This document shows positions 1-54,719 of a stretch of 64,000 bases of DNA, in pieces; position 1 is the stretch's first letter, and each line of letters starts with the position of its first letter. Below the pieces are notes generated by a model. That model was given only the letters and a program-made list of their open reading frames with translations. It was not told the DNA's origin and made no database searches. Source of the stretch: Methylophilus sp. QUAN (GTDB taxonomy: Bacteria > Pseudomonadota > Gammaproteobacteria > Burkholderiales > Methylophilaceae); contig NZ_JADKYT010000002.1 in NCBI RefSeq assembly GCF_015354445.1, forward strand, positions 496,001 through 560,000. The letters run 5' to 3'. A program made the position numbers and the translations under genes.

Positions 1-3000
1 TGAGTGGCTGGAAGATGTTGTCTGACGTATTGATGATCCAGAAGAAAGATGCCCGCGTAGCGGCCGGTAAGGCGCTTGCGTTGAATCATCAAAGCGCCGA
101 AGAGCATTGCTACTATGGGTTGGTGCTCAAGGCACAAAATGACCTCACGGCCGCGGCAGATGCCTTTGCCCAAGCCATACACCTGAAACCAGACTACGCC
201 GCAGCGTATAACAATCTGGGGATTGTGCTCAAGGACCTGGGCGAGGTGGATGAAGCGATCAAGCAGTTTAAACAGGCGCTGATAATACAGCCGCAATATG
301 CCGATTGCTTCAGCAATCTGCTGTTTTGTATGACGCATGCCGCCCACGTGGATAACGAGGCTTTGTTACAGGCGCATACCGCTTACGCCGCACTCTATGA
401 GGCGCCGTTAAAAGCCAATTGGCAGCCGCACAGCAATACGCGTGATGCAGCACGTCCACTGCGTGTAGGCTTGGTGTCCGCCGATTTGCGTGCACATTCA
501 GTGGCGCATTTCCTGTTGCCATTGTTGCCTGCGTTGGCGCAGGACAGCACATTGCAACTGTTTGCCTATGCCAATTACGCACTGGAGGACGAAGTCACTG
601 CCGAGATGCGTCAGTATTTCAAACAATGGCGCATGGTTTCAAGCGTATCCGATGAAGCACTGGCAGAGACCATCAGGCAAGACCAGATTGATGTCCTGAT
701 CGATTTGTCCGGGCACACTTCCGGCAACCGCTTACTGACGTTTGCTAGAAAACCAGCACCTGTGCAGGCCAGTTGGTTAGGCTATTTGAATACCACAGGC
801 CTGACATCTATAGATTATTACCTGGCTGACAGAGCGTTGTTGCCAGCCGGGCAGTTTGACCAGCAGTTTACCGAGCAACTGGTGCAATTACCGGTGAATG
901 CGCCATTTGTGCCGCATCCACAGGCACCAGCCGTCAATGTCTTGCCTGCGCTCAGCAATGGTTATATCACTTTTGGCTGCTTTAACCGTCCCAACAAAAT
1001 TACCCAGGCCACGGTGCAGCAATGGGCTGCAGTGATGCAGATTTTCTCAGACAGCCGTATGGTATTGGGTGGCATGGCAGAGGCAGGTGCCTGCGCGCAT
1101 GTGCAGCAATGGTTTGCCGAGGCAGGCATTACTGCAGACCGTTTATCGTTTTATGCCCGTACCGATATGCTGAGTTATTTACAGCAATATCATTTAGTCG
1201 ATATTTGCCTGGACACTTTCCCGTCTAATGGCGTGACCACCACCGCCCACGCTTTGTGGATGGGCGTGCCTACGCTATGTGTGGCCGGTGACCGCCTGGC
1301 CAGCCGTGGGGCCATGGCGTTGATGCAGCATCTTGGCTTGAATGACTATGCCGCAGCAAGCCCAGCGCACTATGTACAACAGGCTGGGCAGGTGTTGTCT
1401 GACCTGCAGGCACTGGCTGATTTACGCGCCACTATGCGCGCCCGTTTTACGCAGTCTCCGCTGGCACAAGCGGCACCCTTGGCGCAGGCTCTGTCACAGG
1501 CACTGCGGCAGATGTGGCAACGCTGGTGCCAGGGGCAGGCTGCGAGCAGTTTTGCTATTCCTTCTTTAACGCTGAAAGAACCTTCTGTTGCGCCGGGCGC
1601 GACTGAACCCTCTGATAAAGGTATCTCTATGAATACAACACTTAACCCACAAGCTAACACACTGCACGACTCGATTGCTGAAGTGTTTCAGCTGGCGCTG
1701 CAAATGCAGGAAAAAGGCGACTTGGCGCAGGCGATGAGCTTTTATCAGGAAATCTTGCGCATAGACGACAAGCACGCAGCAACGTATTTCCAGCTAGGCT
1801 TGTTGGCGCAGCAAGCGGGCAAGGCAGAGGAGGTCTTGCCGTTGCTGGAACAAGCTGTGATCCTGGCGCCGCAACAACCTGCCTACTGGCAGGCCTATAT
1901 AGAAGTGCTGTCACTCACCGCGCCAAGAAATGAGGTGCTGGATGTCATCACGTTTGCCCGCCAGAATGGCCTGGCTGCCGCCGATGCCGATGCGCTGCAA
2001 CACCAATACAGCCAGTCAGCGCCTGCCGCTGATGTGGTTCGCAAAGGGCCGTATATCTACCGTACTGAAGATAACTTCTACCAGCGCGCGCAGACTGAGG
2101 CGTTTGGTTACCAGGATGTTGGCAATGCCGAACAACGCCTGTATGACATGATCCGCCAGTCACGTGACAAAAGCGTATTCTCCAGCGAACTGGCGGCTAA
2201 AGCCACTGACTGGCCAAGCTACTACCACCTGACTTCGCAACGTGCCAATTTGCTGCGCCCGTTTGCGGACAAGATTGCTAACGGTAAGGTACTGGAGCTG
2301 GGCGCCGGTTGCGGCGCGATTACGCGCTTCCTTGGCGAGCTGGGCGGCGAAGTGGTGGCGCTGGAAGGCAGCCCGAACCGTGCGCGCGTGATTGGCCAGC
2401 GTTGTGCCGATCTCAACAATGTGACAATTTACTCTGACCTGATCCAATCGTTTGAAACTGACGAGAAATTTGATGTCGTGACCCTGATCGGCGTGCTTGA
2501 ATATGCGCAGGTCTATGTGAAAGAAGCGGATCCTTTGCGTTTCTTGCTGCAAACCGCCAAGTCATTTCTCAAAGAGGATGGCATGCTGATTGTGGCCATT
2601 GAAAACCAGCTTGGCCTCAAGTATTTCTGCGGTGCGCCTGAAGACCATATGGGACAGGTCATGTATGGGATTAATGACTCCTATAGCACTACCAGCCCGA
2701 TCACGTTCGGCCGTGTAGAGCTGGACGCCCTGATCCGTAGCGCCGGTTTTGAAACCACAGAACTCTATGTACCATTGCCTGACTACAAAACACCAGTCAG
2801 CGTGATTTACCCGGAAGGCTTTAACCAGGCGCATCGTGCAGCTGGCTGGGATGTTGGCGCCCTGGCAGCAGGCTCTGTGGTCCATGACAGACAATCGCCA
2901 CGTCACCCAACATTCTCACTGGAAAACGCCTGGCAGGTGATTGCACGTAACAACCTGGTGGAAGATGTCGCTAACTCATTTATGTTCGTGGCTTATCCGA

Positions 3001-3725
3001 AACGCCAGTCTGGCAAACTGCATCCGGATGTCTTGGCAGCGCATTATGGCTGCCAGCGCCAGGCCGTGTTTAGCAAGGAAACCCAGTTTGTGCATGATGC
3101 ACAAGGCTTGGCAACGCGTACACGTAATACCGGCGAAACAGCGCAATTGCTGCAAGCCGATTGGGAGCATGCGCCTTATCATGGCGGCCAGTTGTGGATG
3201 GACAAACTGACGCAGTTGATGAACCGTCCTGGCTGGCGTGTGGAAGACTTGGCGGCTTGGGCTGCACCTTGGTTGCAAGGTCTGGAAGCCGCCGCCCAGA
3301 CTGGTGGCAAAACCTTGCCGGAATTTGCCGGGTATTCCACGTTGCTGCCTTCTCAGTATTTTGATGCGACGCCGACCAATTTTGTGATGGACAAAGCCGG
3401 GCAGGGCCATTTCTTTGACCTGGAATGGGACTTTGCGATTCCACTGCCAGTGGCTTTTGTGGCCCTGCGCGGCCTGTTCCTCACGCTGCACCGAGTGCGT
3501 AGTTGCGGTAAACCACACGCCAGCACGCCAACCAATATTGGCAGCCTGACGCTGGCTGTGCTGGAGCAGAATGGATACTATTACCGCGATGACCAGTTGC
3601 AAGCGTTGATCAGCGTGTTTAACCGCCTGCAAAACATGACGCAAGGCGTACCAGAGCATGTGGTGAATGGCCTCACAGCGGAGTTCACACGAGCGGAGTT
3701 ACCAGTACGTCAGCTGTTTACGTAA
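1..3725 (+). CDS. TPR / O-GlcNAc transferase-like / methyltransferase fusion (5' partial)
   Basis: The reading frame is open to the left edge, so the true start lies outside the window; about 1240 residues are visible. From the N-terminus there are TPR repeats (about residues 25-110), a GT41 domain of the SPINDLY/OGT family (about 150-510), a Pro/Ser linker, a second TPR stretch (about 555-640), and a class I SAM methyltransferase with motif VLELGAGCGAITRF near residue 760. A C-terminal region of unknown role follows. Soluble TPR-OGT proteins such as Caulobacter FlmG glycosylate flagellin, and fliC is 6.6 kb away, so flagellin or another surface protein is a plausible substrate. That role is inference. 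An ATG at 1629 with AAAGG 7 nt upstream marks a possible old gene junction. Domain calls are firm; the substrate is not. Confidence 0.85.
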   Translation, partial: SGWKMLSDVLMIQKKDARVAAGKALALNHQSAEEHCYYGLVLKAQNDLTAAADAFAQAIHLKPDYAAAYNNLGIVLKDLGEVDEAIKQFKQALIIQPQYADCFSNLLFCMTHAAHVDNEALLQAHTAYAALYEAPLKANWQPHSNTRDAARPLRVGLVSADLRAHSVAHFLLPLLPALAQDSTLQLFAYANYALEDEVTAEMRQYFKQWRMVSSVSDEALAETIRQDQIDVLIDLSGHTSGNRLLTFARKPAPVQASWLGYLNTTGLTSIDYYLADRALLPAGQFDQQFTEQLVQLPVNAPFVPHPQAPAVNVLPALSNGYITFGCFNRPNKITQATVQQWAAVMQIFSDSRMVLGGMAEAGACAHVQQWFAEAGITADRLSFYARTDMLSYLQQYHLVDICLDTFPSNGVTTTAHALWMGVPTLCVAGDRLASRGAMALMQHLGLNDYAAASPAHYVQQAGQVLSDLQALADLRATMRARFTQSPLAQAAPLAQALSQALRQMWQRWCQGQAASSFAIPSLTLKEPSVAPGATEPSDKGISMNTTLNPQANTLHDSIAEVFQLALQMQEKGDLAQAMSFYQEILRIDDKHAATYFQLGLLAQQAGKAEEVLPLLEQAVILAPQQPAYWQAYIEVLSLTAPRNEVLDVITFARQNGLAAADADALQHQYSQSAPAADVVRKGPYIYRTEDNFYQRAQTEAFGYQDVGNAEQRLYDMIRQSRDKSVFSSELAAKATDWPSYYHLTSQRANLLRPFADKIANGKVLELGAGCGAITRFLGELGGEVVALEGSPNRARVIGQRCADLNNVTIYSDLIQSFETDEKFDVVTLIGVLEYAQVYVKEADPLRFLLQTAKSFLKEDGMLIVAIENQLGLKYFCGAPEDHMGQVMYGINDSYSTTSPITFGRVELDALIRSAGFETTELYVPLPDYKTPVSVIYPEGFNQAHRAAGWDVGALAAGSVVHDRQSPRHPTFSLENAWQVIARNNLVEDVANSFMFVAYPKRQSGKLHPDVLAAHYGCQRQAVFSKETQFVHDAQGLATRTRNTGETAQLLQADWEHAPYHGGQLWMDKLTQLMNRPGWRVEDLAAWAAPWLQGLEAAAQTGGKTLPEFAGYSTLLPSQYFDATPTNFVMDKAGQGHFFDLEWDFAIPLPVAFVALRGLFLTLHRVRSCGKPHASTPTNIGSLTLAVLEQNGYYYRDDQLQALISVFNRLQNMTQGVPEHVVNGLTAEFTRAELPVRQLFT
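1577..1613. repeat. Imperfect palindrome in the fusion linker
   Basis: The inverted repeat is centred on G1595, with core arms GCGCC and GGCGC and partly paired outer arms. It encodes the linker between the OGT-like and the TPR-methyltransferase modules. Such a hairpin is more usual between genes than inside one. TGA and TAA codons follow at once in another frame (1613-1618), then AAAGG and an ATG at 1629. Confidence 0.5.
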
Positions 3726-3891: not shown

Positions 3892-5283
3892 TTAAAACAT
3901 GGTTTCCATGCAGCGGCGGATATGCGGGATAGAGCCGACCGGGTTAGGCGTGTATTTGCTCAGTTTGGCCAGGGTTGCCAGTGCTTTATCGGCTTTTTGT
4001 TGCAGGCAATAAACTTCTGTCAGATTGCTGAGCGGGATGGCAGGATTCTCTTGCGCCAGTAATACGGCTTTTTCCAGCAGCAGTTCGGCATCCTCAAATT
4101 GCCCCTGGCTCACCAGCAGGGTGCCAAGGTCATTATAGGGCTCCCAGCAACTACTTTCTTGCTTGATCAGTTCCAGCATCATTTGCGTAGACAGTTTCAT
4201 ATCACCTTCTGCCGCCAGTTTTTCGGCCTGCTGATAGGTGGTCCGGTCTATGTCTACTTGTGCCTTGAGCGCTTGGGTCGGTAAGTGCGTGTGTCCAGCC
4301 AGGGCGGCAAGAATATTGTCTGCAATCAAGGTTGCACTTTGGCCCAGGTGGGCAAATTGATGCTGCTTGTTTTGCGTGATCTGCTGCTGGTATTCGGCGG
4401 CGTTCTCTAAGACGTGCTCTACCGTACGGCGCAAATCAGCTTTGACGGTTTTAATCACATAGTCATAAGGCACACTGGCTGGGCGTGGTGGGTTAGTATC
4501 TGGAATCAGCCAGTCGGTGACCGCAATGCCAGGCACATCCAGCAACAAGGCTTCTGTGAGCACACTGGATTCATCCGATACCATGACATCAGCCAGGCCC
4601 AGGCAATACATGATGCTGACTTCGCGGTCGATGACATAGACATTGTCGGCGCAGTTTCTATGCAGCGCATCCATTGCGTCGATATTGTTCAGCACCCAGC
4701 GGTATTTGTCTGACCAGGGCGCCTGTTTCAGCAACAGGTTGACCGGCAGGTCTTTCAGGGCTTGCACAAATTCATCCTGCTTGCCGTGGTTTTCCCAGGA
4801 TGGTGCGTAGAGGATGGAGTGTTCGTATTTCAGGCCCAGTTGCTCACGCAACTTTTGTGCTTCCTGTTTAAAGGTTTCCTGATTGCGGTAAACCAGGTCG
4901 GCTTTGGGCCAGCCGAGGTCAAACACACCCAATTTAGGACGTGCCTGTTTAAAGTTGGTCTGTGTCTGCCAGCGCTCGACCCAGGCCGGGCCAGGCACAA
5001 TGCCCATATCAAAGGCGGTCCATGGTTCATGATGCCAGAAGTGTGGCCAGATATCATGGCGCTGCGCCAGGTCGTGCAGCAGCACGACAGAAAAACCGGC
5101 ATTCGGTTTGCAGGCGTGTTCACAATACACACCGACTTCGGCATATTGCCTGGAGTCTGTACTCCATTGAATGAGGTAGCCTCTGCTCGCAATTTCGTCG
5201 GCGACTGGCGCCAGGGCCTGGCGTTCGCAGTTGTCGGTATAAAAGAAAGTGAACACAGGCTGTGATGCTGGGGTATTCGTCAT
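3892..5283 (-). CDS. CDP-glycerol glycerophosphotransferase-like transferase with C-terminal TPRs
   Basis: The 463-residue protein has a TagF-like GT-B fold domain (about residues 10-320) with the family's SILYAPSWENHG and VSDESSVLTEALLL stretches. About 130 residues with TPR-type helical repeats follow. Enzymes of this family move a phospho-alcohol from a CDP donor to a glycan or teichoic acid acceptor. As the last gene of a PEP mutase operon with two cytidylyltransferases, it most likely uses a CDP-phosphonate such as CDP-aminoethylphosphonate; that is inference. The TPR tail could recognise a protein acceptor, as the TPRs of flagellin glycosyltransferases do. It starts 6 nt after the methyltransferase stop. 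A plain CDP-glycerol transferase cannot be excluded. Confidence 0.8.
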   Translation of the reverse strand: MTNTPASQPVFTFFYTDNCERQALAPVADEIASRGYLIQWSTDSRQYAEVGVYCEHACKPNAGFSVVLLHDLAQRHDIWPHFWHHEPWTAFDMGIVPGPAWVERWQTQTNFKQARPKLGVFDLGWPKADLVYRNQETFKQEAQKLREQLGLKYEHSILYAPSWENHGKQDEFVQALKDLPVNLLLKQAPWSDKYRWVLNNIDAMDALHRNCADNVYVIDREVSIMYCLGLADVMVSDESSVLTEALLLDVPGIAVTDWLIPDTNPPRPASVPYDYVIKTVKADLRRTVEHVLENAAEYQQQITQNKQHQFAHLGQSATLIADNILAALAGHTHLPTQALKAQVDIDRTTYQQAEKLAAEGDMKLSTQMMLELIKQESSCWEPYNDLGTLLVSQGQFEDAELLLEKAVLLAQENPAIPLSNLTEVYCLQQKADKALATLAKLSKYTPNPVGSIPHIRRCMETMF

Positions 5284-5289
5284 GATGGT

Positions 5290-5988
5290 TTATCCATGCA
5301 AGCGTTTAGAGAAAATGACACTAAAACGGTATTGGCTTTGTGCATAGTTAGGCACGCAGCTTTCAAATGCCTGCTGTGGTTTTTCCGGCAATTGCTGGCT
5401 AAACCACTCAGGGGTGTAATAGGTGTGGTGCAAGCCACGATATTTTTCTTCATATTCGGCAACAGTTAGCGCATCGCGGCGTGCGTGCTCGCAGGCTTCG
5501 CGGGTGGCTGCATGCGGAATATCGAGGATTGCTATGCCAACCTTGGCTTTTTTCCACATGGCCTGGAGCACTTCGGCGGCCATGGCTTCGTCAAAATAAT
5601 GAAATACACTGTTGGCAATCACAAAGTCATATTCCTTGCTGGTGTCTAGCGATTGCGCAGGAATGGCCTGGAAATCACCATCAGGCATGGCCTGTTGCGC
5701 GGCTTCAATCAGTCCGGCGGCATAATCTAGGCCACCAACAGTTAAAGGATGCTGCTGGCGTAGGGCATACAAGAATGCCCCGGCGCCACAACCTACCTCA
5801 AAGACTGAGTCACCAGACTGCATCCCCAGCTTGTCACTGATGCGGCGCGTATATTCCTGCCAGTCGGCGAGGTCAATTTTGCCTGCACCGCTATCAAAGC
5901 CATCCAGGGCAATTAGCGTCTCCAATGTGATGGCATGCTGCGGTTGCAGGCTGCGCTTTTCCCAAATCTGTTGCCAGTGGTTACTCAT
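5290..5988 (-). CDS. Class I SAM-dependent methyltransferase
   Basis: The 232-residue protein has the Rossmann motif I VFEVGCGAGAFLYAL near residue 62, an acidic motif II region (GGLDYAAGLI) and a post-I FVIANSVFHYF motif. Its start overlaps the stop of the cytidylyltransferase gene (ATGA), so the two are translationally coupled. In a phosphonate operon the obvious substrate is the amino group of 2-aminoethylphosphonate or its CDP ester; N-methyl-aminoethylphosphonate is a known bacterial headgroup. Methylation of the glycan acceptor is an alternative. The fold is certain and the substrate is inference. Confidence 0.75.
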   Translation of the reverse strand: MSNHWQQIWEKRSLQPQHAITLETLIALDGFDSGAGKIDLADWQEYTRRISDKLGMQSGDSVFEVGCGAGAFLYALRQQHPLTVGGLDYAAGLIEAAQQAMPDGDFQAIPAQSLDTSKEYDFVIANSVFHYFDEAMAAEVLQAMWKKAKVGIAILDIPHAATREACEHARRDALTVAEYEEKYRGLHHTYYTPEWFSQQLPEKPQQAFESCVPNYAQSQYRFSVIFSKRLHG

Positions 5989-6398
5989 GTGTTTGCTTCC
6001 ATTTTTTGACTGACGGCTTTGAGCACGCGGGCACGCAACAAGGTGCTGCTGATGCCTTCTGTGCGCGGCAAAATATGTAATTTTTCGGCTGCAATCGGGT
6101 TGCTGTTATCGTGGCCGTGCACCAGCAGGTCAATCTTGTGTTGCTGTATAAAAGCTTCATCAAGCAGCCAGGGGCTAGGCACAACCTCGTCTACATCGCG
6201 CATGGCCAGTAACACTTCGGCACGGGCGGCGTAATCCAGCTCAGGCTCATAGCCTTTCTTGGCGCGAATTTCTTCGTCGGTGGTCAGTGCAACTACCACA
6301 TGACCTAACTGTTTAGCCGCTTTTAACAGGCGCACATGACCATGATGGATTAAGGTCGCTGACATATCGACCATAATGCGTTTGGATGGCTGTGTCAT
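5985..6398 (-). CDS. Small cytidylyltransferase (GCT/TagD-like)
   Basis: At 137 residues this has the length of glycerol-3-phosphate cytidylyltransferases. The HHGH nucleotide-binding motif lies near residue 18 and the RTEGISSTLL signature near residue 112. It should join CMP from CTP to a phosphate or phosphonate. In context the substrate is probably 2-aminoethylphosphonate, giving CDP-aminoethylphosphonate as PntC-type enzymes do, or else a second alcohol phosphate. It overlaps its neighbours by 4 nt on each side. It is the second cytidylyltransferase in the operon, because the PEP mutase carries another at its N-terminus. Confidence 0.8.
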   Translation of the reverse strand: MTQPSKRIMVDMSATLIHHGHVRLLKAAKQLGHVVVALTTDEEIRAKKGYEPELDYAARAEVLLAMRDVDEVVPSPWLLDEAFIQQHKIDLLVHGHDNSNPIAAEKLHILPRTEGISSTLLRARVLKAVSQKMEANT

Positions 6399-7390
6399 GG
6401 CTGTAACTCCAGTAAATCGAGAATGGCGCCGCGTGCTGCACTGCCCAGGTGTGCTTCGCCCAGATGGCAGACGACGCTGCCACGGCTGATCCCGCGTGGC
6501 TGGTAGAGCACTGCGCGGCTATCCTGGCTGCTGACCGTGGCATCTACCCAGGTGCATAGCACGGGCTGGTAGTGCACGGGGTGTGTGGCATAAGTGCCAA
6601 TCTTTTTCAGCATCTGGGCTTTGTTGATAAACACCGCTTCACGCAAGTCATCATGCTTGGGCAACACTTCATATAACGAGGCCATGGCATGGTAAGGGCC
6701 GGTCATGCGGCGTTCCAAATGTGTCGCCAGATTGAGGTAAAACGAGTCGACCTCGTGTTTTGGTAACTGGTTAAATGCAATAAATGAGGCGCCTGTGAGG
6801 CCAAACAGGCCTTTGCAGGAGCTATAGGCAATCACATCTGCCAGGCCATGATCTATTTCCAGGCCGATTGAAGCGGTTGCATCCAGCATAAGCTGGGCGC
6901 CGACACGGTCTGCCAATGCGCGCAAATCAGCAATTGGCAACAACAGGCCTGCACTGGTTTCGGTATAGCAGGCGACGACCCAGTCGAAACGGCCGCTGAT
7001 ATTGGCCAGTTGCTGCCAGTCGCAGACGGTGACCAGTGACACCTGGCCAGCTGTACGCTGAGCCAGTTGCGCAAAGCTGACTAATCGCTGGGCGTAATAG
7101 CCGCTGTCTATCACAAGTACCTTGCCATGCAAGAAGTTCAGGCTGGCGATTTCCAGCGCCAGGCTGGCGGAGCCTTGCAGGCGCGCGATCTGTGCGTGGC
7201 CAGTCATGTGCTTGAGGGCGGACAGCACCGCATGATCAACCTGATTGTAGTCGAGGTCACCACGCCCGAAGCACGGGCGCAGGCCTAGCAGGTTTTCTTC
7301 AAGCAAGCTGGCCGGGCCCGCAGTAAACAGCACTTTATGCTGGTTTTGGGCCGCGACGTGCGCGTGTATGGTGGTGGTTGCTTCAAGCAT
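6395..7390 (-). CDS. Class V aminotransferase, 2-aminoethylphosphonate transaminase-like
   Basis: This PLP enzyme of 331 residues resembles the PhnW/AepZ group. The N-terminal KVLFTAGPASL matches the family's substrate-loop signature. The likely PLP lysine is in YSSCKGLFGLTG near residue 195. In the biosynthetic direction it would aminate phosphonoacetaldehyde to 2-aminoethylphosphonate, the third step after PEP mutase and phosphonopyruvate decarboxylase. It is slightly shorter than typical PhnW (about 360). The start overlaps the decarboxylase stop by 8 nt. A degradative role is unlikely, because no phosphonatase gene is nearby. Confidence 0.82.
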   Translation of the reverse strand: MLEATTTIHAHVAAQNQHKVLFTAGPASLLEENLLGLRPCFGRGDLDYNQVDHAVLSALKHMTGHAQIARLQGSASLALEIASLNFLHGKVLVIDSGYYAQRLVSFAQLAQRTAGQVSLVTVCDWQQLANISGRFDWVVACYTETSAGLLLPIADLRALADRVGAQLMLDATASIGLEIDHGLADVIAYSSCKGLFGLTGASFIAFNQLPKHEVDSFYLNLATHLERRMTGPYHAMASLYEVLPKHDDLREAVFINKAQMLKKIGTYATHPVHYQPVLCTWVDATVSSQDSRAVLYQPRGISRGSVVCHLGEAHLGSAARGAILDLLELQP

Positions 7391-8561
7391 ATTCCACCTC
7401 GGTTAAAAATTGCATAAAGTCCTGTTTGTTTTGGGCTGGTGTGCGGGTGGGTCGGCCCAGGTCGGCACGGGCACCTTTGCGGCACAGCACTTCAATCAGG
7501 CAGCTTTTGCCACTGCGCAGGACTTGTGGGATGAGTTGGTTTAGTTGTTCTGCGCCGGACACACTGTACACCTGCGTGTAGCCAGCCGCACTGGCAATGT
7601 CGGCCAATGCCAATTGCGCAGCGACGGTTGGTTGCCCACCCACGGAGTCATGCGCACCATTATTCAATACGATATGCAGCAAGTTGGCTTGCTGGGCGCT
7701 GATGGTCAGGCTACCCATGTGCATCAACATGGCGCCATCGCCGTCAATACAGACGACTTGCCGGTCTGGTTGTGCCAGCGCAATGCCACAGGCAATTTGC
7801 GAGGCATGGCCCATGCCGCCCACGGTGAGAAAGTCGCGGCCATGTCCGGCCTGTTGTGCTTTGCGCAGTTCAAACAACTCACGTGAGGCCATGCCGGTGG
7901 TCGCTACCACGGCAGCTTCTTGTGGCAAGGCTGACACAATTTGTCCAATCATGTGCTCACGGCTTTCGAGCACCGGCAATTTACCTGCCAGGGCAGAGGC
8001 GGGGGCTGCTGTTGTTTTGACTGGCTTATACGGCGCAAAGCTTTGTTTGCGCACCACCAGCGCTACAGGTCCCTGACGTGTCATCGCTTGCTGCAACAAT
8101 GTTTGGATTTGCGCATGGGCGGTGTCTATGTCATCAGCCATCACCTGGTAAGGCAAGCCGAGCACGTCAAGTTGTGACAGAGTGATTTGGCCTTGTTTGA
8201 CATGCTGTGGTTCATCATGGATTTGTGTGCCATCGGCAGCGAGTTCACCCCGCCAGCCGATAACCAATAACATAGGAATGCCATATACCTGTGGATCTGC
8301 CAGTGACGCAATCGGGTTGACCACATTGCCCAGGCCAGAGTTTTGCATATAGACCAGGCCAGGTTGTTGGGTGGCCAGGTAGTGGCCAATGGCCAAACCA
8401 ATCGCGCCACCCTCATTGGCGGCAATCACATGTTGATCCTTTGCCAGCTTGTCTGAAAAGCAGGCGCATAATTCTTTAAGTAATGAGTCGGGCACCCCGG
8501 CAAAAAATTGCACTTGTTCGGTTTGCAATGCACTTAAAAAGTCTTCAGCATGAATCATCAT
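7383..8561 (-). CDS. aepY: Phosphonopyruvate decarboxylase
   Basis: The 392-residue thiamine diphosphate enzyme converts phosphonopyruvate to phosphonoacetaldehyde, the irreversible step that pulls the unfavourable PEP mutase reaction forward. The N-terminal FFAGVPDSLLKELC is the family signature. The TPP/Mg motif GDGAMLMHMGSL with a downstream NN pair (HIVLNNGAHDSVGG) is near residues 270-300. GGAG lies just before two adjacent ATG codons (8561 and 8558), so either could be the start. The gap to the PEP mutase gene is 9 nt. Sulfopyruvate decarboxylase is related but is excluded by the context. Confidence 0.92.
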   Translation of the reverse strand: MMIHAEDFLSALQTEQVQFFAGVPDSLLKELCACFSDKLAKDQHVIAANEGGAIGLAIGHYLATQQPGLVYMQNSGLGNVVNPIASLADPQVYGIPMLLVIGWRGELAADGTQIHDEPQHVKQGQITLSQLDVLGLPYQVMADDIDTAHAQIQTLLQQAMTRQGPVALVVRKQSFAPYKPVKTTAAPASALAGKLPVLESREHMIGQIVSALPQEAAVVATTGMASRELFELRKAQQAGHGRDFLTVGGMGHASQIACGIALAQPDRQVVCIDGDGAMLMHMGSLTISAQQANLLHIVLNNGAHDSVGGQPTVAAQLALADIASAAGYTQVYSVSGAEQLNQLIPQVLRSGKSCLIEVLCRKGARADLGRPTRTPAQNKQDFMQFLTEVEYA

Positions 8562-8570
8562 GTGCTCCGC

Positions 8571-9869
8571 TTATTTAGTACCTGGAATCAGTTCCAGCAC
8601 GTCGTTAATCGACATCAGGCTGGATTCGATTTCTGCTGTCCTGCCATTTTTGAGGATTTCCATGGCGGCATTCTGCATGGCAGGGTAAGCCGCACGCATC
8701 ATGTGGTTGGCATAAATCACCAGGTTAAAGCCGTGTGCGGCCAGTTCTTCCTCTGTCACCTTGTTGTAGCTGGTTGGTACGCAGACTAAAGGAGTAGTCG
8801 GGAATTCTGATTTAAAGATTTTGGCAAACTCGAACACTTCGTCCGGGGCCTTCTGGCGGCTGTGGATCATGATGCCATCGACGCCAGCGCCGACATAGGC
8901 TTGTGCACGTTTGACGGCATCTGCAATGCCTTTTTCCAGGATCAGGCTTTCAATACGCGCAATCACCATAAAGTCATCGCTGACACGGGCAGCACGGCCA
9001 GCGGCAATTTTTTCGCAGAAGGGCTCAATCTCATCCTGCAATTGCGGCACTTCGTTGCCAAATAAGGAGTTCTTTTTTAAACCAATCTTGTCTTCAATAA
9101 TGGTGGCGGAAATACCCAGGCGTTCCATGCTGCGCACATTGAGTTCAAAATGCTCCAGTTTGCCGCCGGTGTCGGCATCCATAATTAAAGGTTTGGTGGT
9201 GACATCAAAAATGTCATTAATATTAGATAGGCGACTGTTGATCTCAACCGCTTCAATATCTGGTTTGCCGCGGGCGGTAGAGTCGGTCAGTGAGCTAGAC
9301 CAGAAGCCGTCGAACTGGCAGGTCTTGCCATTACGTTGTGCCGTCACATGCTCGGCAATCAGCGCCGAGATCGGGTTGTGTGCTTCAATAAAGCGTGAAA
9401 TCGGTTTGACGGTCAGCAATCTTTTCAAAGTGCGGCGGCGGATATCCGGTGTGGTACCCAATGCCTGGATCTGGCCGAGCATTTCATTCGAAGATACGCC
9501 ACGTGTATAAGGAATCTCAATCAGGTGGCCACCATATTCGGCCAATGCAGCACGCGCACGGTCACGGTAGGGCACCAATGGGCCTTCCAGCCAGTCGTCA
9601 CCATGCACCATGATGTCTGGTTTGTATTTGAGCAGGTTGGGTGCGTAGTCCCATTCTTCCTGCGGCACCACATTCACCACGCCGCGGATATTGCTGACAA
9701 TCTGTTTGCGCTGTTCGTAGGTGAGGTAGGGCAGGCGTTTGTGGTCGGCGACCGCCGCGTCGGATAACAGGCCGATGGTGACATCGCCATACTTTCTGGC
9801 TTGCTCAATAATATTGATATGGCCATGGTGCAGAATATCTACAGTCATACCTACATAAACGGATGCCAT
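8571..9869 (-). CDS. aepX: Phosphoenolpyruvate mutase fused to an N-terminal cytidylyltransferase
   Basis: The committed enzyme of phosphonate biosynthesis, isomerising PEP to phosphonopyruvate and forming the C-P bond. I place the start at 9869 (432 residues) because GAAGGAG lies 7 nt upstream; an in-frame extension of 25 residues to 9944 lacks such a site. Residues 1-130 are a cytidylyltransferase domain with HHGH at 14-17 and a RGVSSNEML motif. Residues of about 175-432 form the mutase barrel of the isocitrate lyase superfamily, and EDKIGLKKNS matches the mutase signature EDKxxxxxNS. It is the first gene of the operon. Fusions of this kind are known and link phosphonate synthesis to CDP activation. 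Confidence 0.95.
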   Translation of the reverse strand: MASVYVGMTVDILHHGHINIIEQARKYGDVTIGLLSDAAVADHKRLPYLTYEQRKQIVSNIRGVVNVVPQEEWDYAPNLLKYKPDIMVHGDDWLEGPLVPYRDRARAALAEYGGHLIEIPYTRGVSSNEMLGQIQALGTTPDIRRRTLKRLLTVKPISRFIEAHNPISALIAEHVTAQRNGKTCQFDGFWSSSLTDSTARGKPDIEAVEINSRLSNINDIFDVTTKPLIMDADTGGKLEHFELNVRSMERLGISATIIEDKIGLKKNSLFGNEVPQLQDEIEPFCEKIAAGRAARVSDDFMVIARIESLILEKGIADAVKRAQAYVGAGVDGIMIHSRQKAPDEVFEFAKIFKSEFPTTPLVCVPTSYNKVTEEELAAHGFNLVIYANHMMRAAYPAMQNAAMEILKNGRTAEIESSLMSINDVLELIPGTK

Positions 9870-9894
9870 GCAAAACTCCTTCGTAGTCTTTTGA

Positions 9895-9913
9895 ATACCT
9901 TTATATAAGGTAT
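9895..9913. promoter_or_regulatory. Perfect inverted repeat in the PEP mutase leader
   Basis: The arms ATACCTT and AAGGTAT flank a TATAT spacer, 26-44 nt upstream of the mutase start codon. The centre is AT-rich and could overlap a -10 element. It may be an operator for the phosphonate operon. I could not identify a convincing -35 element, and the binding factor is unknown. Confidence 0.35.
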
Positions 9914-10222
9914 GCGAATTGGATAGCCTGATTATCGTTGGCAATGCCCAGGAATGATTTGCAGATAAACGCGGAAAACCGGCCTTATATCTTGTGTGAT
10001 AGAGCGGTCATGAACGAGGCCTGAAAGCGGTGTGCTTTAAAAGCGGAATTAAGACTGATTCTCTATTTAGCTCGGTTAATGGTGAAGGCACATTCTTTTA
10101 TAGAATAGATTGATGTAAACAATTTTGTGCCGTTCTTGATTAAAGGCTAAAGATTTTGGTGGAGGGGTCGTAAATAGTTTCAAGTGCATGATTGATCGAA
10201 AAAAGAAATTTGCAATAAGTAT
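9914..10222. other. AT-rich intergenic region upstream of fliC
   Basis: No credible gene is seen between the phosphonate operon leader and the flagellin promoter. A short frame on the minus strand (10076-10327) spans the fliC promoter and shows no family features. The region probably carries regulatory sequence for the two divergent units. Confidence 0.5.
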
Positions 10223-10249
10223 TAAAGAAATTTCGCAAGCGGTCGATAA
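10223..10249 (+). promoter_or_regulatory. Sigma-28 (FliA) promoter of fliC
   Basis: TAAA at 10223-10226 and GTCGATAA at 10242-10249 are separated by 15 nt, against the consensus TAAA-N15-GCCGATAA, with one mismatch. Transcription should start near 10256 and leave a leader of about 105 nt. Confidence 0.88.
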
Positions 10250-10361
10250 CACAACTAACAACGCTAGATAGCAAACATTAAGTGGTAAATAGCGATCAAC
10301 GTTGAAAGTAACATGACGATTTGACACTTAACTGGATATACGACTCTAAAGGAGATTTAAC

Positions 10362-11159
10362 ATGGCTTCAGTAATTAACACCAACCTGGCTTCCTTGAAC
10401 GCACAACGTAACTTGACCGCTTCACAAAGCAGCCTGAACACTTCCATTCAACGTTTGTCTTCTGGTCTGCGTATTAACAGCGCTAAAGATGACGCGGCTG
10501 GTATGGCGATTGCAACACGTATGGACTCACAAGTTCGCGGTATGGATGTTGCAACACGTAACGCTAACGACGCGATTTCTTTCCTGCAAACTGCAGAAGG
10601 TGGCTTGAGCAGCGCAACTGATGCCTTACAACGTATGCGTGAACTGGCTGTACAAGCAGCTAACGGTTCCTACAGCTCTGGTGACCGTGCAAACCTGGAT
10701 ACAGAATTCTCACAACTGAAGTCAGAACTGACTCGTTTGGGTACTGCAACCAAGTTTAACGGCCAGGCAGCATTCGGTGCTGGTTACAACTTCCAGATCG
10801 GTGCAGACAGCGGTGACACCATCAGCGTGGCTTCTGTATCAGCAGCTTCTCTGTCCGGTTCCCTGTCTTCAGCAGATGCAGCTTCAGATGCGATTACAGC
10901 GATTGACGCACAACTGACGACAGTGAACACCAGCCGTGCGACATTGGGTGCTTACCAAAACCGTTTTGCTTCAGTAGTAAGCAACCTGGGCGTAGCGTCT
11001 GAGAACATGTCTGCTGCCAAGTCACGTATCACTGATGCTGACTTCGCTTCAGAAACAGCCAAGATGACACGTGCACAGATTCTGCAACAAGCTGGTACTG
11101 CGATGCTGGCTCAAGCGAACCAGTTGCCTAACCAAGTGATGACATTGCTGAGAGGCTAA
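10362..11159 (+). CDS. fliC: Flagellin
   Basis: This is the filament subunit, 265 residues. The conserved N-terminal D0/D1 region (NTNLASLNAQRNL, then LSSGLRINSAKDDAAGMAIA) and the C-terminal D1/D0 region (SRITDADFASETAKM and the LANQVMTLLRG-type end) are both complete. Between them is only a short Ser/Ala-rich segment, so the surface-exposed D2/D3 domains are nearly absent. That segment is a natural place for O-linked glycans. AAAGGAG gives a very strong ribosome site 6 nt before the ATG, and codon use is strongly biased, as expected for an abundant protein. It is under a sigma-28 promoter. Confidence 0.97.
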   Translation: MASVINTNLASLNAQRNLTASQSSLNTSIQRLSSGLRINSAKDDAAGMAIATRMDSQVRGMDVATRNANDAISFLQTAEGGLSSATDALQRMRELAVQAANGSYSSGDRANLDTEFSQLKSELTRLGTATKFNGQAAFGAGYNFQIGADSGDTISVASVSAASLSGSLSSADAASDAITAIDAQLTTVNTSRATLGAYQNRFASVVSNLGVASENMSAAKSRITDADFASETAKMTRAQILQQAGTAMLAQANQLPNQVMTLLRG

Positions 11160-42076: not shown

Positions 42077-44017
42077 TCAGTGTATCTGCTGTGAAGGCGA
42101 GGGCAGGGTATCTAGCGATAACGCACCGCCGCGTAGGGAAACATCAGGTGCCGGGCGGGTATCAGGTTGATATTCTTCTACCCAGCGCTGCAAGTCTTGC
42201 TTGATTTGTGCTTCTTGCAAGTGTGGAATATTGCTTAACCAATCCAGCAGATTGGCCAACCAAAGCGCATCTGCACTGCGTGCTTGCGCAATGCGTAATT
42301 TTTCATGGCTGGTGGGCAAGGTACTTTCATCATCTGCTAGCAGTTCTTCATATAGTTTTTCACCCGGGCGCAAGCCGGTAAACTCTATGCGAATATCCTG
42401 CTCTTGCAGGCCTGATAATTTAATCATATCGCGTGCCAAGTCGATAATTCTGACCGGTGTGCCCATGTCCAGCACAAACACCTCGCCGCCATTACCCATG
42501 GTGGCTGCCTGCAACACTAATTGCGCCGCCTCGGGGATAGACATAAAGTAGCGTGTGATTTCTGGGTGGGTAATGGTAATCGGGCCGCCATGGGCAATCT
42601 GCTCACGGAACTTGGGAATCACACTACCGCTACTGCCCAATACGTTGCCAAAACGCACCGTGATAAAACGCGTGCGGCTATTCTCGCCATGCTGCAATCC
42701 CTGGCAAATCAGCTCCGCCAGCCGTTTGCTGGCACCCATCACATTGGTGGGGTTCACGGCTTTATCGGTTGAAACCAGCACAAACGTTGGGACACCCGCC
42801 GCCTGGCAAGCTGACGCAATCTGGTAGGTGCCATGGGCGTTATTCTGCAAGGCCTCCACCACATTAAAATGCTCCATCATCGGCACGTGCTTGTAAGCGC
42901 CAGCATGCAACACCACATCAGGTTGATGGCTTTGCAAAATACGCTGAATACGCGTCTGGTTTTTCACATCTGCCACCAGGTACACCAGCTCGGTATCCGT
43001 CACCCACTGGCTAAATTCCTGTTGCAGGGTATAAAGCGCATATTCAGAAATATCCAGGCAAATTAACTGCGTCGGGTGAAAGCTCAATATCTGGCGGCAT
43101 AACTCAGAACCTATCGAGCCCGCAGCACCAGACACCAGCACCACTTTGTTCGCTAGCATACTGCTCAGACCATGCGTGTCTAACTGCACCACATCGCGCC
43201 CTAGCAAATCCTCCACATCAATCTTGCGAATCTGAGACAAACTGATGCGGCCACTGATCAGGTCCGACATCGCAGGCAAAGTTAACACCTCCATGCCCTC
43301 GACTTTACGCGCCGCTTCAACAGCCAGGCGACGCTTTTCATGACGACTCCCCGGCATCGCAATCATGCAATGCTGGCAACCATGCCGTGCCGCAATCTGC
43401 GCCATATCTTCCAACCCACCCTCGACCTTGGTGTGCATAATCTCGCGCCCAACCAGTTTGTTACTAGGGTCAACCATCGCCACGACACGCCACTCAGGGT
43501 TCTTGCTCAACTCTTTAATCAGGCTAAACGAAGCGTCTTCAACGCCAATCACAATCACAGGCTTGCCTTGCAAGGCAATGCCATTGAATAAACGACGTTC
43601 CTTCCATGCTCGGTAAATAAAACGGCTACCGCCCATGGCTAGTGTCAATAACATGGGGTGAAGAATAAGTACAGAACGTGGAATGATAATGGAGGGATGC
43701 ACCAATAAGGCATATGATGCACTCAGTAGTGCTGCAAAACCAATTGCACGCATAATACGCTTCAAGTCAGGCAGGCTGGCAAATCGCCATACACCTTTGT
43801 ACAGGCCAAATGTATAAAAAGAAATCGCGTGGAATATAAAAATGACAGGCAGGCTTTGCCAGATATAGTGCTTGAATTCAACAGGGATTTGAAAATTAAA
43901 ACGCAACGAAAATGCCATCCACCATGCAGCTATGACAATAGTGGCGTCATGTATGAACGCTAATAAGGATAAGAGTCGGCCAGGAATTCTAAGCATATTG
44001 ATTGCTGTGATGATCAA
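42077..44017 (-). CDS. FlaA1/PglF/WbpM-type UDP-GlcNAc 4,6-dehydratase, membrane form
   Basis: The 646-residue protein has an N-terminal membrane domain (about four helices to residue 120) and two Rossmann regions. The catalytic SDR part has GAAGSIGSELCRQI (about 293) and STDKAVNPTNVMGASKRLAE, where Met replaces the SDR tyrosine and TDK supplies catalysis, as in PglF. The product would be a UDP-4-keto-6-deoxy-HexNAc for a QuiNAc or FucNAc-type first sugar. It overlaps the sugar-transferase gene by 4 nt and is the last gene of the operon. Confidence 0.9.
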   Translation of the reverse strand: MIITAINMLRIPGRLLSLLAFIHDATIVIAAWWMAFSLRFNFQIPVEFKHYIWQSLPVIFIFHAISFYTFGLYKGVWRFASLPDLKRIMRAIGFAALLSASYALLVHPSIIIPRSVLILHPMLLTLAMGGSRFIYRAWKERRLFNGIALQGKPVIVIGVEDASFSLIKELSKNPEWRVVAMVDPSNKLVGREIMHTKVEGGLEDMAQIAARHGCQHCMIAMPGSRHEKRRLAVEAARKVEGMEVLTLPAMSDLISGRISLSQIRKIDVEDLLGRDVVQLDTHGLSSMLANKVVLVSGAAGSIGSELCRQILSFHPTQLICLDISEYALYTLQQEFSQWVTDTELVYLVADVKNQTRIQRILQSHQPDVVLHAGAYKHVPMMEHFNVVEALQNNAHGTYQIASACQAAGVPTFVLVSTDKAVNPTNVMGASKRLAELICQGLQHGENSRTRFITVRFGNVLGSSGSVIPKFREQIAHGGPITITHPEITRYFMSIPEAAQLVLQAATMGNGGEVFVLDMGTPVRIIDLARDMIKLSGLQEQDIRIEFTGLRPGEKLYEELLADDESTLPTSHEKLRIAQARSADALWLANLLDWLSNIPHLQEAQIKQDLQRWVEEYQPDTRPAPDVSLRGGALSLDTLPSPSQQIH

Positions 44018-44583
44018 TGAGTGATGTTATCACGTTTGATCACTTTGACAGCAGTCATGCAAACTATCCTAATATCCAACCATAACGATTTATGACTTAG
44101 ATAGTAAGCGTCCAAAGCAACTTTTTGCGGGATCGGGATTTCATCGCGGCCATTAACTTGTGCCCAACCGGTGATGCCGGGTTGCAGAGTGTGTACGCGA
44201 TGCGACGTTCGTAGCGTGATTAGATCGTCCTGGTTGAATAATGCAGGTCGCGGGCCTACTATAGACATGTCTCCTTTAAGTACGCTCCATAATTGCGGCA
44301 ACTCATCCAGGCTGGTCTTGCGAATAAAGCTACCTACAGGTGTCAGGTAACTGCCGGATTGTGTCTGTTGCTGCATGAGGTGGGTAGCAAGCTGTGGAGT
44401 GCCTACCTGCATGGAGCGAAATTTAGGCATATTAAATAGCTTGTTATGTTTGCCTACTCTCTGGCTCCAGTAAAGTGCTGGTCCAGAGGAGGTCATTTTG
44501 ACCAGCAATAGGGTCAAAATGATCAGCGGCAATAACAACAGTGATGCAGAGAGTGATAATACGATATCAAACAGGCGTTTCAT
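44014..44583 (-). CDS. Initiating phosphoglycosyltransferase (PglC/WcaJ C-terminal type)
   Basis: The 189-residue monotopic transferase moves a sugar-1-phosphate to undecaprenyl phosphate, starting the repeat or glycan. One N-terminal hydrophobic hairpin (LFDIVLSLSASLLLLPLIIL) precedes the family motifs FNMPKFRSM, TSLDELPQLWSVLKG (with the catalytic Asp-Glu pair) and IVGPRPAL. The start at 44583 overlaps the preceding glycosyltransferase stop (ATGA); longer starts run into that gene. The small size fits PglC. Confidence 0.92.
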   Translation of the reverse strand: MKRLFDIVLSLSASLLLLPLIILTLLLVKMTSSGPALYWSQRVGKHNKLFNMPKFRSMQVGTPQLATHLMQQQTQSGSYLTPVGSFIRKTSLDELPQLWSVLKGDMSIVGPRPALFNQDDLITLRTSHRVHTLQPGITGWAQVNGRDEIPIPQKVALDAYYLSHKSLWLDIRIVCMTAVKVIKRDNITH

Positions 44584-45716
44584 GATTCTTGGTGTAGATG
44601 TTGTTGATAAAAAGTCAGCCACGCATGAGTGATGAGTCGACTGTCAAAGGAGTGTTGTACTCGCGCAAGCGCCTGCTGCCCTAGTGTTTGCCTTAAGGCA
44701 GTATCGTGGACCAGTACTTGCAGTTTCTCATGAATGTCTCCCACTTGTCTGGGTGCATGTAATAGGCCTGTATGTCCATCCACCAATGCGTCGGTGATGC
44801 CATAGATATTAGAGGCTAGGCTTGGTATGGCACAAGCAGCGGCTTCTATAATTACAACACCAAATCCCTCTCGATAACTTGGTAAGCAAAGGACGTCAGC
44901 AGCATTCATATAGTCGGCAGGCTGATTTGTTTCAGGCTGAATGTGCAATAGATGTCTTTTGTGCATGAGTTGTTGCGAAATTACTGACAGTAGTTTGTGT
45001 TCATCAGGACCCACAATCAGCAGATGTACATCCAATTGAGGCATCTGCGCATAAGCATTGACTAAGTCAAGAAGGCCTTTGTCACGATTCAAGCGACCAA
45101 TAAATAGCAGTACTACGGCGCTCTTAGGAATTCCCAAGCGCTGCCTTATAGCATGTCTTTTATCTTTATCTGGGGAGAAACGTTTCAAATCAACGCCGGC
45201 AATTGATCCCTCATTGAATACGATTGCTTTACCTGCATCGATGATATTGTGTTGCAGTAGAAAGTTCTTTTCTGACTTACTGACAATGGTCAAATGTGTA
45301 GCTAGTTTAGCGACCAGCTTATCCAGCGTGATCAATAACCAGCGCATAAACCCGCGTTGAGTAATCCATACCTCTCCCTGAAAAGTATGCACCCGCATTG
45401 GTCGTCGTGTAAACCAGCCTGCTAGCATGGTCAATAAACCTGCCTTAGGCGTGACGGAATGCACTGCATCGTAGCGTTGGCTAGCAAATAGCCACATCAG
45501 TTTGAGTAGGCACAAAACGTCAAACAGTGGATGTATCTCGCGTCTGATAGCTATTGGAATTAGAGTGATATTCAGATCGAGATCAGCTAGCAGTTGCTTG
45601 TTTTGTGTATTAACTACCAGCGACACATCAAACTGTTTTGACAGCATATGTAGATGCTCACGCATAAACGCTTTGACGGCAAATTCAGCAGTTAAAACAA
45701 AACAGATCTTTTTCAT
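44580..45716 (-). CDS. Glycosyltransferase family 4
   Basis: The 378-residue GT-B enzyme has an N-terminal acceptor domain (RVHTFQGEVW) and donor-site motifs FIGRLNRDKGLLDLV and YREGFGVVIIEAA (the EX7E pattern). It should add the second or a later sugar on the lipid carrier. The start at 45716 overlaps the upstream stop (ATGA), so it is coupled to the GT2 gene. Donor and linkage are unknown. Confidence 0.88.
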   Translation of the reverse strand: MKKICFVLTAEFAVKAFMREHLHMLSKQFDVSLVVNTQNKQLLADLDLNITLIPIAIRREIHPLFDVLCLLKLMWLFASQRYDAVHSVTPKAGLLTMLAGWFTRRPMRVHTFQGEVWITQRGFMRWLLITLDKLVAKLATHLTIVSKSEKNFLLQHNIIDAGKAIVFNEGSIAGVDLKRFSPDKDKRHAIRQRLGIPKSAVVLLFIGRLNRDKGLLDLVNAYAQMPQLDVHLLIVGPDEHKLLSVISQQLMHKRHLLHIQPETNQPADYMNAADVLCLPSYREGFGVVIIEAAACAIPSLASNIYGITDALVDGHTGLLHAPRQVGDIHEKLQVLVHDTALRQTLGQQALARVQHSFDSRLITHAWLTFYQQHLHQES

Positions 45717-46519
45717 ACTAGCGATTGTTTCATCCATGTCTGCAACACTTTGATGTTTCTTGCAAAAAATACTGCAGTGGCTGGCAGTAAATGACAGGGG
45801 TTAGACTGCAGAAAGTAACGGCATTGTAGTTGATAGACAGCAAAGTAAGTGCCCCACAATTTGCGGATATTGACTCTGTCGCGGACTCGATAGTGCAGCA
45901 GAACCTCGTTTAGACAGGCAAACGTGCTCTGTGCATGGGTGCGCAGGAGCAACTCTTGGTCCTCACAAAAGTAGGGCGCCGGGGTAGCATAGCGGTATGT
46001 TCTGAACCAGCTGGTTTTTCCCATCCAGGTCGGATGTGGCATGTAGATGCTGCGCCATGGTTTATTGCATAGAGACGTGTGCTCCAATTCGTAAGGTAGG
46101 CTGCCATTAACCTGCCCTTGACCATCAATCGTGTTCACGCGGGTAGATAGTAGGTCTACATCCGGATGTTTTTGCAAATAGGCAACTTGCTTTTCAAAGC
46201 GGCGTGGTAAGGCGACATCGTCCTGATCCATACGGGCAAAAAATGTGCCTTGTGCCAGATCTATACATTCATTTAGTCGCGCGGCCAGACCGTAATTATT
46301 GCCATCATTGAACAAGTGTATTCTTGGGTCATCCAGTATCCCGATCTGCCGCAGGTTTGCGATGGCATGATCCGTCGAGCCGTCATCGATTATCAGTAAC
46401 TCCCAATATGGATAACTTTGCTGGAGGAGAGATTTGATCGCTTCAGCAAGCAAAGGTCCGGCATTGTAAATTGGCATGCCTATGCTAATAAGAGGTGGTG
46501 TGTGTGTAGACATTTGCAT
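45713..46519 (-). CDS. Glycosyltransferase family 2
   Basis: The 268-residue GT-A enzyme has ISIGMPIYNAGPLLAEAI and IDDGSTD in its nucleotide-binding half and ARMDQDDVALP as the DXD metal motif. A C-terminal segment is hydrophobic-aromatic but not clearly a membrane span. ATG 46519 and 46513 are both possible. Donor and acceptor are unknown. Confidence 0.88.
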   Translation of the reverse strand: MQMSTHTPPLISIGMPIYNAGPLLAEAIKSLLQQSYPYWELLIIDDGSTDHAIANLRQIGILDDPRIHLFNDGNNYGLAARLNECIDLAQGTFFARMDQDDVALPRRFEKQVAYLQKHPDVDLLSTRVNTIDGQGQVNGSLPYELEHTSLCNKPWRSIYMPHPTWMGKTSWFRTYRYATPAPYFCEDQELLLRTHAQSTFACLNEVLLHYRVRDRVNIRKLWGTYFAVYQLQCRYFLQSNPCHLLPATAVFFARNIKVLQTWMKQSLV

Positions 46520-46531
46520 GAAGAGTTCATT

Positions 46532-47467: not shown

Positions 47468-47474
47468 GGTGTGA

Positions 47475-48347: not shown

Positions 48348-48358
48348 AATTTATACGT

Positions 48359-50813: not shown

Positions 50814-50860
50814 GTGGAGTGACTAATTTTGATATTTGAGCCTAACCCTTAGTGAAGTTT

Positions 50861-53543: not shown

Positions 53544-53550
53544 GACTGAT

Positions 53551-54639: not shown

Positions 54640-54670
54640 TTTAGCCAGTATGTAAGTCAGTAAATGTAGA

Positions 54671-54679
54671 ATTATAGCA
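54671..54679 (-). promoter_or_regulatory. Extended -10 promoter of the polysaccharide operon
   Basis: On the minus strand TGC precedes a perfect TATAAT, giving the TGn extended -10 element. There is no good -35. Transcription would start near 54664, about 25 nt before the gmd start codon, and could run to the last gene at 42077. Confidence 0.6.
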
Positions 54680-54719
54680 TGAGGAAAAAGCAGTACCGGG
54701 CTGGACCTGTCAGTCATTT

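Follow-up and report, generated by a model that had tools for sequence, protein, structure and literature searches.

Why should an operon for making a phosphonate lie directly beside a flagellin gene, and onto what would its product be transferred? We addressed this question for a locus of a methanol-consuming Methylophilus within a stretch of 64,000 nucleotides (here called the window; positions 496001-560000 of contig C2 in a 3.15 Mb genome of six contigs). Six closely packed minus-strand genes, read from 9869 to 3892, encode in this order a fusion of a nucleotidyltransferase with phosphoenolpyruvate (PEP) mutase (NTase-PepM), a phosphonopyruvate decarboxylase (Ppd), a transaminase, a cytidylyltransferase, a methyltransferase and a TagF-like transferase. 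With a probability of about 0.62 we believe that these genes form a dedicated cassette for flagellin phosphonylation with a self-made headgroup containing a carbon–phosphorus (C–P) bond.

Organization of the locus

The genes and the intergenic region are located as follows (aa, amino acids).

8571..9869, minus strand: NTase-PepM fusion (N-terminal PF01467 domain plus PEP mutase), 432 aa from the ATG; PF13714, TIGR02320
7383..8561, minus strand: phosphonopyruvate decarboxylase (Ppd); TIGR03297
6395..7390, minus strand: class V transaminase, a divergent 2-aminoethylphosphonate (AEP) transaminase; TIGR03301 below cut-off, PDB 7e7g
5985..6398, minus strand: standalone cytidylyltransferase, proposed CTP:AEP cytidylyltransferase; PF01467
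5290..5988, minus strand: class I S-adenosylmethionine (SAM) methyltransferase, proposed to N-methylate the AEP amine; family search
3892..5283, minus strand: TagF-like CDP-dependent transferase with C-terminal TPR tail; PF04464, TPR_19, fold search
9870..10361, no strand: intergenic region separating the operon from fliC, both being transcribed outward from it
10362..11159, plus strand: fliC flagellin, 265 aa, proposed acceptor via its glycan; PF00669, PF00700
11232..13874, plus strand: flaG, fliD and fliS, the start of the flagellar cluster; named by position
15..3725, plus strand: window part of a 2226-aa TPR-OGT (GT41) protein with a C-terminal second methyltransferase-type region (MT2); convergent with the operon

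The operon is transcribed away from fliC, with the two 5′ ends about 490 bp apart. Downstream of fliC a long flagellar gene cluster follows, in which further flagellar genes were recognized by Pfam; the names flaG, fliD and fliS are presumed from position rather than taken from family matches. On the far side of the operon the TPR-OGT-methyltransferase protein is encoded on the plus strand, its 3′ end being convergent with the operon. The best start of PepM is the ATG at 9869 behind an AAGGAG ribosome site rather than the TTG at 9944, and the PepM profile scores given below were computed on the frame starting at the TTG. An initial annotation of this DNA had listed a mutase with the motif EDKxxxxxNS, a decarboxylase, a transaminase, cytidylyltransferases, a methyltransferase and a TagF-like protein, with a TPR-OGT protein on the far side, and all of these are located where it had placed them, the last as part of the 2226-aa protein with MT2. 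It also let the operon end beside fliC; the adjacency is correct, the direction has to be reversed, as the operon begins there.

Synthesis and activation of the headgroup

For the first two steps the assignments are secure. The window PepM reaches 411.6 bits on TIGR02320 (cut-off 319.55) and 188.9 bits on PF13714, and on the phosphonopyruvate hydrolase model it stays with 161 bits under the cut-off of 374.4. The EDKxxxxxNS motif is present in the PepM of all 16 loci checked, the window included. Ppd scores 474.8 bits on TIGR03297 (cut-off 312.5). Among PDB entries 7e7g, an AEP-pyruvate transaminase, is the top match of the transaminase (E 1.8e-13). A second gene of the genome (L002) also exceeds the PF13714 cut-off; it lacks EDKxxxxxNS and lies beside a citrate-synthase-like gene, and it was therefore set aside as presumably a methylisocitrate lyase (PrpB-like). 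The C–P lyase PhnJ was not found in the window's own genome.

Two domains might activate the headgroup. The N-terminal domain of PepM is PF01467 cytidylyltransferase-like with 5x3d as top PDB match (an entry titled PEP phosphomutase, E 6.8e-45), which corresponds to the cytidylyltransferase part of Fom1. The standalone cytidylyltransferase likewise belongs to PF01467, and its nearest PDB entries are ethanolamine-phosphate, glycerol-3-phosphate and choline-phosphate cytidylyltransferases. In the window it carries both an HxGH and an RTEGISST motif; among the loci having the gene HxGH is found in 15 of 15 and an RTEGISS-type motif, by pattern match, in 14 of 15. HxGH is kept in both cytidylyltransferase domains; the PepM N-domain departs from 5x3d in its last motif. 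With both in PF01467, neither nucleotidyltransferase of the window is of the PntC type (PF12804/LicC). The standalone cytidylyltransferase, perhaps together with the PepM N-domain, would be the enzyme that makes CMP-AEP. The route from PEP to activated AEP and on to the transferase is well supported.

The transferase, the methyltransferases and the OGT protein

The TagF-like protein matches PF04464 with 29.4 bits (cut-off 22.1, E 5.2e-7) and has TPR_19 in its tail. A Foldseek search with its AlphaFold model (pLDDT 87.7) gave TagF (3l7m, 3.1e-10), Cps3D (a serotype 3 capsule multienzyme) and TarL as the best 13 matches, with TM-scores by query length of just 0.43-0.50. The enzyme would transfer from a CMP-linked donor. 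TPR repeats are found on the OGT protein and the TagF-like protein alike.

The OGT protein starts upstream of the window, and its MT2 region extends from about residue 2052. MT2 homologues are adjacent to or fused with the TagF homologue at all 15 TagF loci described below. This C-terminal region has no Pfam match at E up to 5 in the window protein; its structure model retrieved methyltransferases alone among the 50 matches listed, several of them phosphoethanolamine N-methyltransferases, and a PDB sequence search also gave methyltransferases alone (best E 0.001). We had considered MT2 as a WbdD-like methyltransferase-kinase and rejected this because of the missing Pfam match and the outcome of both searches. 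In the C-terminal half of MT2 (window 2952-3722) D, N and DxEW residues are invariant in 14 of 14 homologues; they bear some resemblance to a kinase-like catalytic loop.

Conservation beside fliC within the family

We surveyed 187 genomes of the family for PepM (match threshold E 1e-30) and obtained 15 with a match, 14 having the same cassette and one (G045) a different cluster. The cassette genomes comprise 11 Methylophilus and three Methylotenera. All 11 Methylophilus loci show an identical gene order with a divergent fliC beside the cassette, the distance from PepM start to fliC start being 475-512 bp throughout. In two of the three Methylotenera genomes the cassette is located upstream of and co-directional with fliC, with MT2 in between. 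The gene order fliC-flaG-fliD-fliS is kept in the relatives. A flagellin domain match was obtained in 83 of the 187 genomes, and the cassette is found in 14 of these 83 vs none of the 104 without flagellin, kinship being ignored in this count.

Five congeners (out of ten) were measured; their six cassette genes match the window at 35-71% of the fourfold-degenerate sites, and their cassette proteins are 73-99% identical to it. The low identity at these sites together with the high protein identity indicates purifying selection on the cassette genes. Among the six proteins PepM is the best conserved in 5/5 congeners. Over all ten congeners PepM is 93-99% identical to the window (a broken copy, L028, over 69% of its length) and the other five proteins 72-99%. 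In fourfold-site identity PepM ranks first of the six genes in two of the five congeners and second in three, and lies below fliC in all five; perhaps this ranking is a sign of high expression. The broken copy (L028:9437-10735, Methylophilus G064) has an in-frame stop in the linker between NTase and PepM domains, with an ATG as the next codon.

On the fliC side of the intergenic region there is a sigma28-like promoter at 10223, and the pattern TAAA-N15-GTCGATAA occurs in 11/11 Methylophilus loci. Column 209 of the flagellin alignment holds Ser in 14/14 cassette flagellins and Ala in 11/12 others (12 flagellins from 8 genomes), which is too little to use.

At the corresponding site congeners without the cassette have other genes, as seen by Pfam on the open reading frames of L057, L063 and L059 (three of the eight such congeners): a sugar aminotransferase, a formyltransferase-ankyrin protein and a TPR-glycosyltransferase in G060, glycosyltransferases in G075 and regulatory genes in G067. 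Two cassette-free congeners, L057 and L058, carry fliC in triplicate, two of the copies being separated by a 370-aa gene for which a DegT aminotransferase domain was confirmed in L057 alone; formyltransferase-ankyrin and TPR-GT61 genes are nearby in L057. Perhaps these gene sets specify another type of flagellin glycan. The different cluster of G045, a small genome (L033:9473-13412), consists of an NTase-PepM, a thiamine pyrophosphate enzyme and a fusion of cytidylyltransferase and AEP transaminase that scores above the TIGR03301 cut-off; no flagellin was found in this genome, which is 48% complete.

Relatives outside the family and control genomes

A scan with the TagF profile over one genome per species (84,980 species, the window's own genome possibly left out) gave 15 loci, nine in Methylophilus, three in Methylotenera and one each in Dechloromonas (L094), Andreprevotia (L095) and a gammaproteobacterial metagenome-assembled genome (MAG, L096). 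Two of the Methylophilus loci (L085 and L090) are on contigs under 5 kb which carry a partial cassette plus MT2 and end before fliC could show. In Dechloromonas, Andreprevotia and two of the three Methylotenera genomes the starts of PepM and fliC are 8.5-11.8 kb apart with the cassette in between.

The Dechloromonas proteins show identities to those of the window of 76% for PepM, 59% for Ppd, 62% for the transaminase, 70-71% for the cytidylyltransferase, 46% for the methyltransferase and 57% for TagF. Its transaminase scores 55.4 on TIGR03301 and does not reach the cut-off of 360.8. After TagF follows a 1754-aa protein with MT2 and a GT2 domain, and then a distant fliC (39%), flaG, fliD and fliS. 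The TPR tail of TagF is aligned through in the Methylotenera and Dechloromonas homologues.

Among the fliC pairings we regard Andreprevotia as the most telling case. Here PepM is only 34% identical and has a C-terminal PF12804 nucleotidyltransferase domain instead, Ppd is 34% identical, the transaminase is barely over the TIGR03301 cut-off (362.0 vs 360.8) and the nucleotidyltransferase encoded on its own is homologous to PntC (PntC-AEPT 6pd1, E 4e-44), an enzyme making CMP-AEP. The transfer module is shared, with a methyltransferase 48% identical, at the same cassette position as in the window and Dechloromonas, and a TagF 58% identical. The latter is part of a 2061-aa TagF-MT2-RgpF-GT2 protein, combining TagF, MT2 and two glycosyltransferase domains, which is encoded immediately upstream of fliC. 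Two synthesis modules, distantly related or unrelated, thus stand ahead of one common transfer module beside flagellin. The common donor would most simply be CMP-AEP, because PntC enzymes prefer AEP over phosphocholine (PMC6697681).

In a control sample of 369 genomes of the class TagF at E 1e-15 was found in two, G283 and that of the window itself, and PepM at E 1e-60 was found in 6/369 class-sampled and 5/398 phylum-sampled genomes, the own genome being within each count. Of the ten other PepM genomes (nine sampled plus G045) five have flagellin, and in no case was one seen within 50 kb of pepM. The nearest control flagellin is about 76 kb from pepM (G715); in G543, where pepM lies on a contig of just 13.6 kb, a pairing could have gone unseen.

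Weighing the explanations

Several lines of evidence favour a dedicated flagellin cassette. The enzymes of the AEP route and of its activation are all represented in the operon. Four genera show the pairing with fliC, in two orientations, which favours a flagellar target; no flagellin was seen near pepM in the controls, and within the family the cassette is confined to flagellin-bearing genomes. No flippase or exporter domain was found among the six operon proteins, and both OGT and TagF bear TPR repeats. The models published for type A and b-type flagellin modification, discussed below, provide a precedent.

There are also findings that weigh against it. Eight of the 19 Methylophilus genomes with a fliC match, among 22 in the genus of which 11 have pepM, show no pepM match, and the cassette is thus dispensable for flagellation. 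The third Methylotenera genome (G141) has fliC 30 kb from pepM on the same contig. On the operon side of the intergenic region no sigma28-like site (≤2 mismatches) was found in 11/11 Methylophilus loci, and co-regulation with fliC is therefore not demonstrated. The Ser/Thr content of flagellin is no higher in cassette genomes than in relatives without it. The window transaminase reaches 73.9 bits on TIGR03301, far under the equivalog cut-off of 360.8. The PF04464 homology of the TagF-like protein is weak (E 5.2e-7), and in the fold search UDP-GlcNAc 2-epimerases (6.9e-9) come close behind TagF and TarL. The Andreprevotia TagF has no TPR match, and hence not all flagellar versions share the TPR tail. 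In the MAG (L096/L071) homologues of TagF (53%, no TPR tail) and MT2 (30%) lie beside a predicted flippase and GDP-sugar genes, as named from their translations. Finally, the window itself holds an O-antigen-like cluster at 42-55 kb, about 32 kb from the cassette; it extends over 42077-54717 and comprises a predicted flippase, glycosyltransferases, a GDP-mannose dehydratase, a DegT aminotransferase and an initiating sugar transferase.

The last two observations are those on which an attachment of AEP to the O-antigen of lipopolysaccharide or to another surface polysaccharide can draw, the place beside fliC then being stable and functionally neutral. Most bacterial phosphonate capacity has indeed been described as cell-surface tailoring (PMC6697681), and the context in the MAG implies that the family is able to serve polysaccharide, so that such a target is conceivable here too. 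The cassette, however, lacks a flippase, a polymerase and an initiating transferase and is separated from the O-antigen-like cluster by the distance given; a neutral position does not sit easily with the recurrence of the fliC pairing in four genera and both orientations, nor was a flagellin seen close to pepM in the other PepM genomes. The flagellar TagF proteins, moreover, have a TPR tail or, in Andreprevotia, a glycosyltransferase fusion, whereas the polysaccharide version is a plain TagF. All in all we hold a polysaccharide target to be unlikely, and the flagellar versions rather look like a transfer of the polysaccharide chemistry of the MAG type to a protein-linked glycan.

It is less likely still that the headgroup made for the flagellin glycan would be not AEP but a different phosphonate or a phosphate-linked group. 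The divergence of the transaminase would fit this, as would the two cytidylyltransferase domains with the PepM N-domain closest to 5x3d, since Fom1 acts on hydroxyethylphosphonate (PMC6697681). No hydroxyethylphosphonate reductase was found among the six operon proteins, however, Andreprevotia has an AEP transaminase at the cut-off and a PntC homologue ahead of a related transferase, and AEP-tailoring clusters have been described in which one nucleotidyltransferase is fused and another lies nearby (PMC6697681). That the operon should yield a free phosphonate of low molecular weight, for instance an antimetabolite, seems very improbable: antibiotics also come from PepM pathways, but the operon ends in a TagF-like transferase, its proteins include no exporter domain, and the cassette is kept with flagellin and glycosyltransferase genes across genera.

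We therefore retain flagellin phosphonylation as the preferred explanation. The initial annotation had proposed the path from PEP to an activated headgroup, which is well supported apart from a transaminase that resembles AEP transaminases only distantly, and had named loss of the fliC synteny in all relatives as one refutation; the synteny is kept in four genera. Its interpretation as a whole, which ended in decoration of flagellin or another surface protein through its glycan, is partly supported. Flagellin as the carrier is judged from position, with the TagF homologue in the polysaccharide cluster of the MAG to be kept in mind, and we consider it the probable acceptor.

Proposed pathway and comparison with known systems

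In the proposed pathway PepM would convert PEP to phosphonopyruvate, Ppd would yield phosphonoacetaldehyde and the transaminase AEP, which would be activated to CMP-AEP by the standalone cytidylyltransferase, the N-domain of PepM perhaps contributing. The methyltransferase would probably N-methylate AEP. Flagellin would be glycosylated in the cytoplasm by the TPR-OGT protein or by GT2-type enzymes elsewhere, the TPR-tailed TagF-like enzyme would use the CMP conjugate as donor and place its (methyl)AEP phosphonyl group on a hydroxyl of a sugar in this glycan, and MT2 may modify the same glycan. Decorated FliC would then be exported via the flagellar secretion channel.

The type A genes of Clostridioides difficile (CD0240-CD0244) lie near fliC. 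The type A model and the b-type model of Pseudomonas aeruginosa PAO1 both combine a methyltransferase and a transferase resembling TagF with nucleotidyl activation (PMC10714395, PMC11833859). For type A a glycosyltransferase, a nucleotidyltransferase for a CDP-type donor, a methyltransferase and a TagF-like transferase acting on the flagellin-linked sugar have been proposed (PMC10714395), with CDP-threonine as donor and CD0244 as transferase, and this set of genes is found beside flagellin in the window as well. The headgroup differs, being phosphothreonine, as proposed from the phosphoserine-phosphatase homologue CD0241, instead of the product of a C–P pathway; no phosphatase-like domain of the CD0241/PA1089 type was found among the six operon proteins, to which this search was confined. 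In the b-type genes (PA1088-PA1091) PA1091 unites a glycosyltransferase and a CD0244 homologue in one gene (PMC11833859), comparable to the TagF-MT2-glycosyltransferase fusion of Andreprevotia; here the headgroup is N,N-dimethylthreonine phosphate, and phosphonate is unmentioned in PMC11833859.

The PntC pathways of Treponema denticola and others share with the window a PepM, the making of AEP and its activation by CTP to tailor surfaces (PMC6697681), but use PF12804 enzymes instead of PF01467, and flagella are unmentioned in the main text of that paper. Fom1 of the fosfomycin pathway has, as in the window, a PF01467 cytidylyltransferase domain fused to the PepM N-terminus (PMC6697681) and, unlike what we propose here, provides CMP-hydroxyethylphosphonate for a free antibiotic. 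For marine phosphonate producers phosphonates have been proposed on cell-surface glycoproteins (PMC8931226); there an oligosaccharyltransferase-like domain is co-localised, whereas in Methylophilus OGT/TagF-type enzymes would act on flagellin inside the cytoplasm.

The initial annotation had named only lipids and polysaccharides as known carriers of AEP. This is incomplete, as 2-AEP has been detected by mass spectrometry on the flagellin glycan of C. difficile, as a minor variant whose origin was left open, the organism having come out negative for pepM, an absence which that paper discusses (PMC8861647). It is the sole report of AEP on flagellin that we found in the literature searched, and no PepM cluster beside or acting on flagellin is reported in the titles or abstract openings of the open-access literature searched.

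To sum up, the cassette is real, conserved and functionally coherent, and it would extend the nucleotide-activated flagellin glycan modifications by a self-made phosphonate. We find it rather likely that Betaproteobacteria possess a self-sufficient pathway placing AEP, probably N-methylated, onto the flagellin glycan, and that it arose from a polysaccharide phosphonyltransferase redirected by gain of a TPR tail or by fusion to a glycosyltransferase, with a different, partly unrelated synthesis module in Andreprevotia. If this is true, the logic of type A would be extended to phosphonates, and a rare AEP modification of flagellin would become genetically testable in tractable methylotrophs such as Methylophilus methylotrophus. 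It would also offer a clean system for the role of a C–P bond in a protein-linked glycan with respect to phosphatase stability, phages, grazers and motility.

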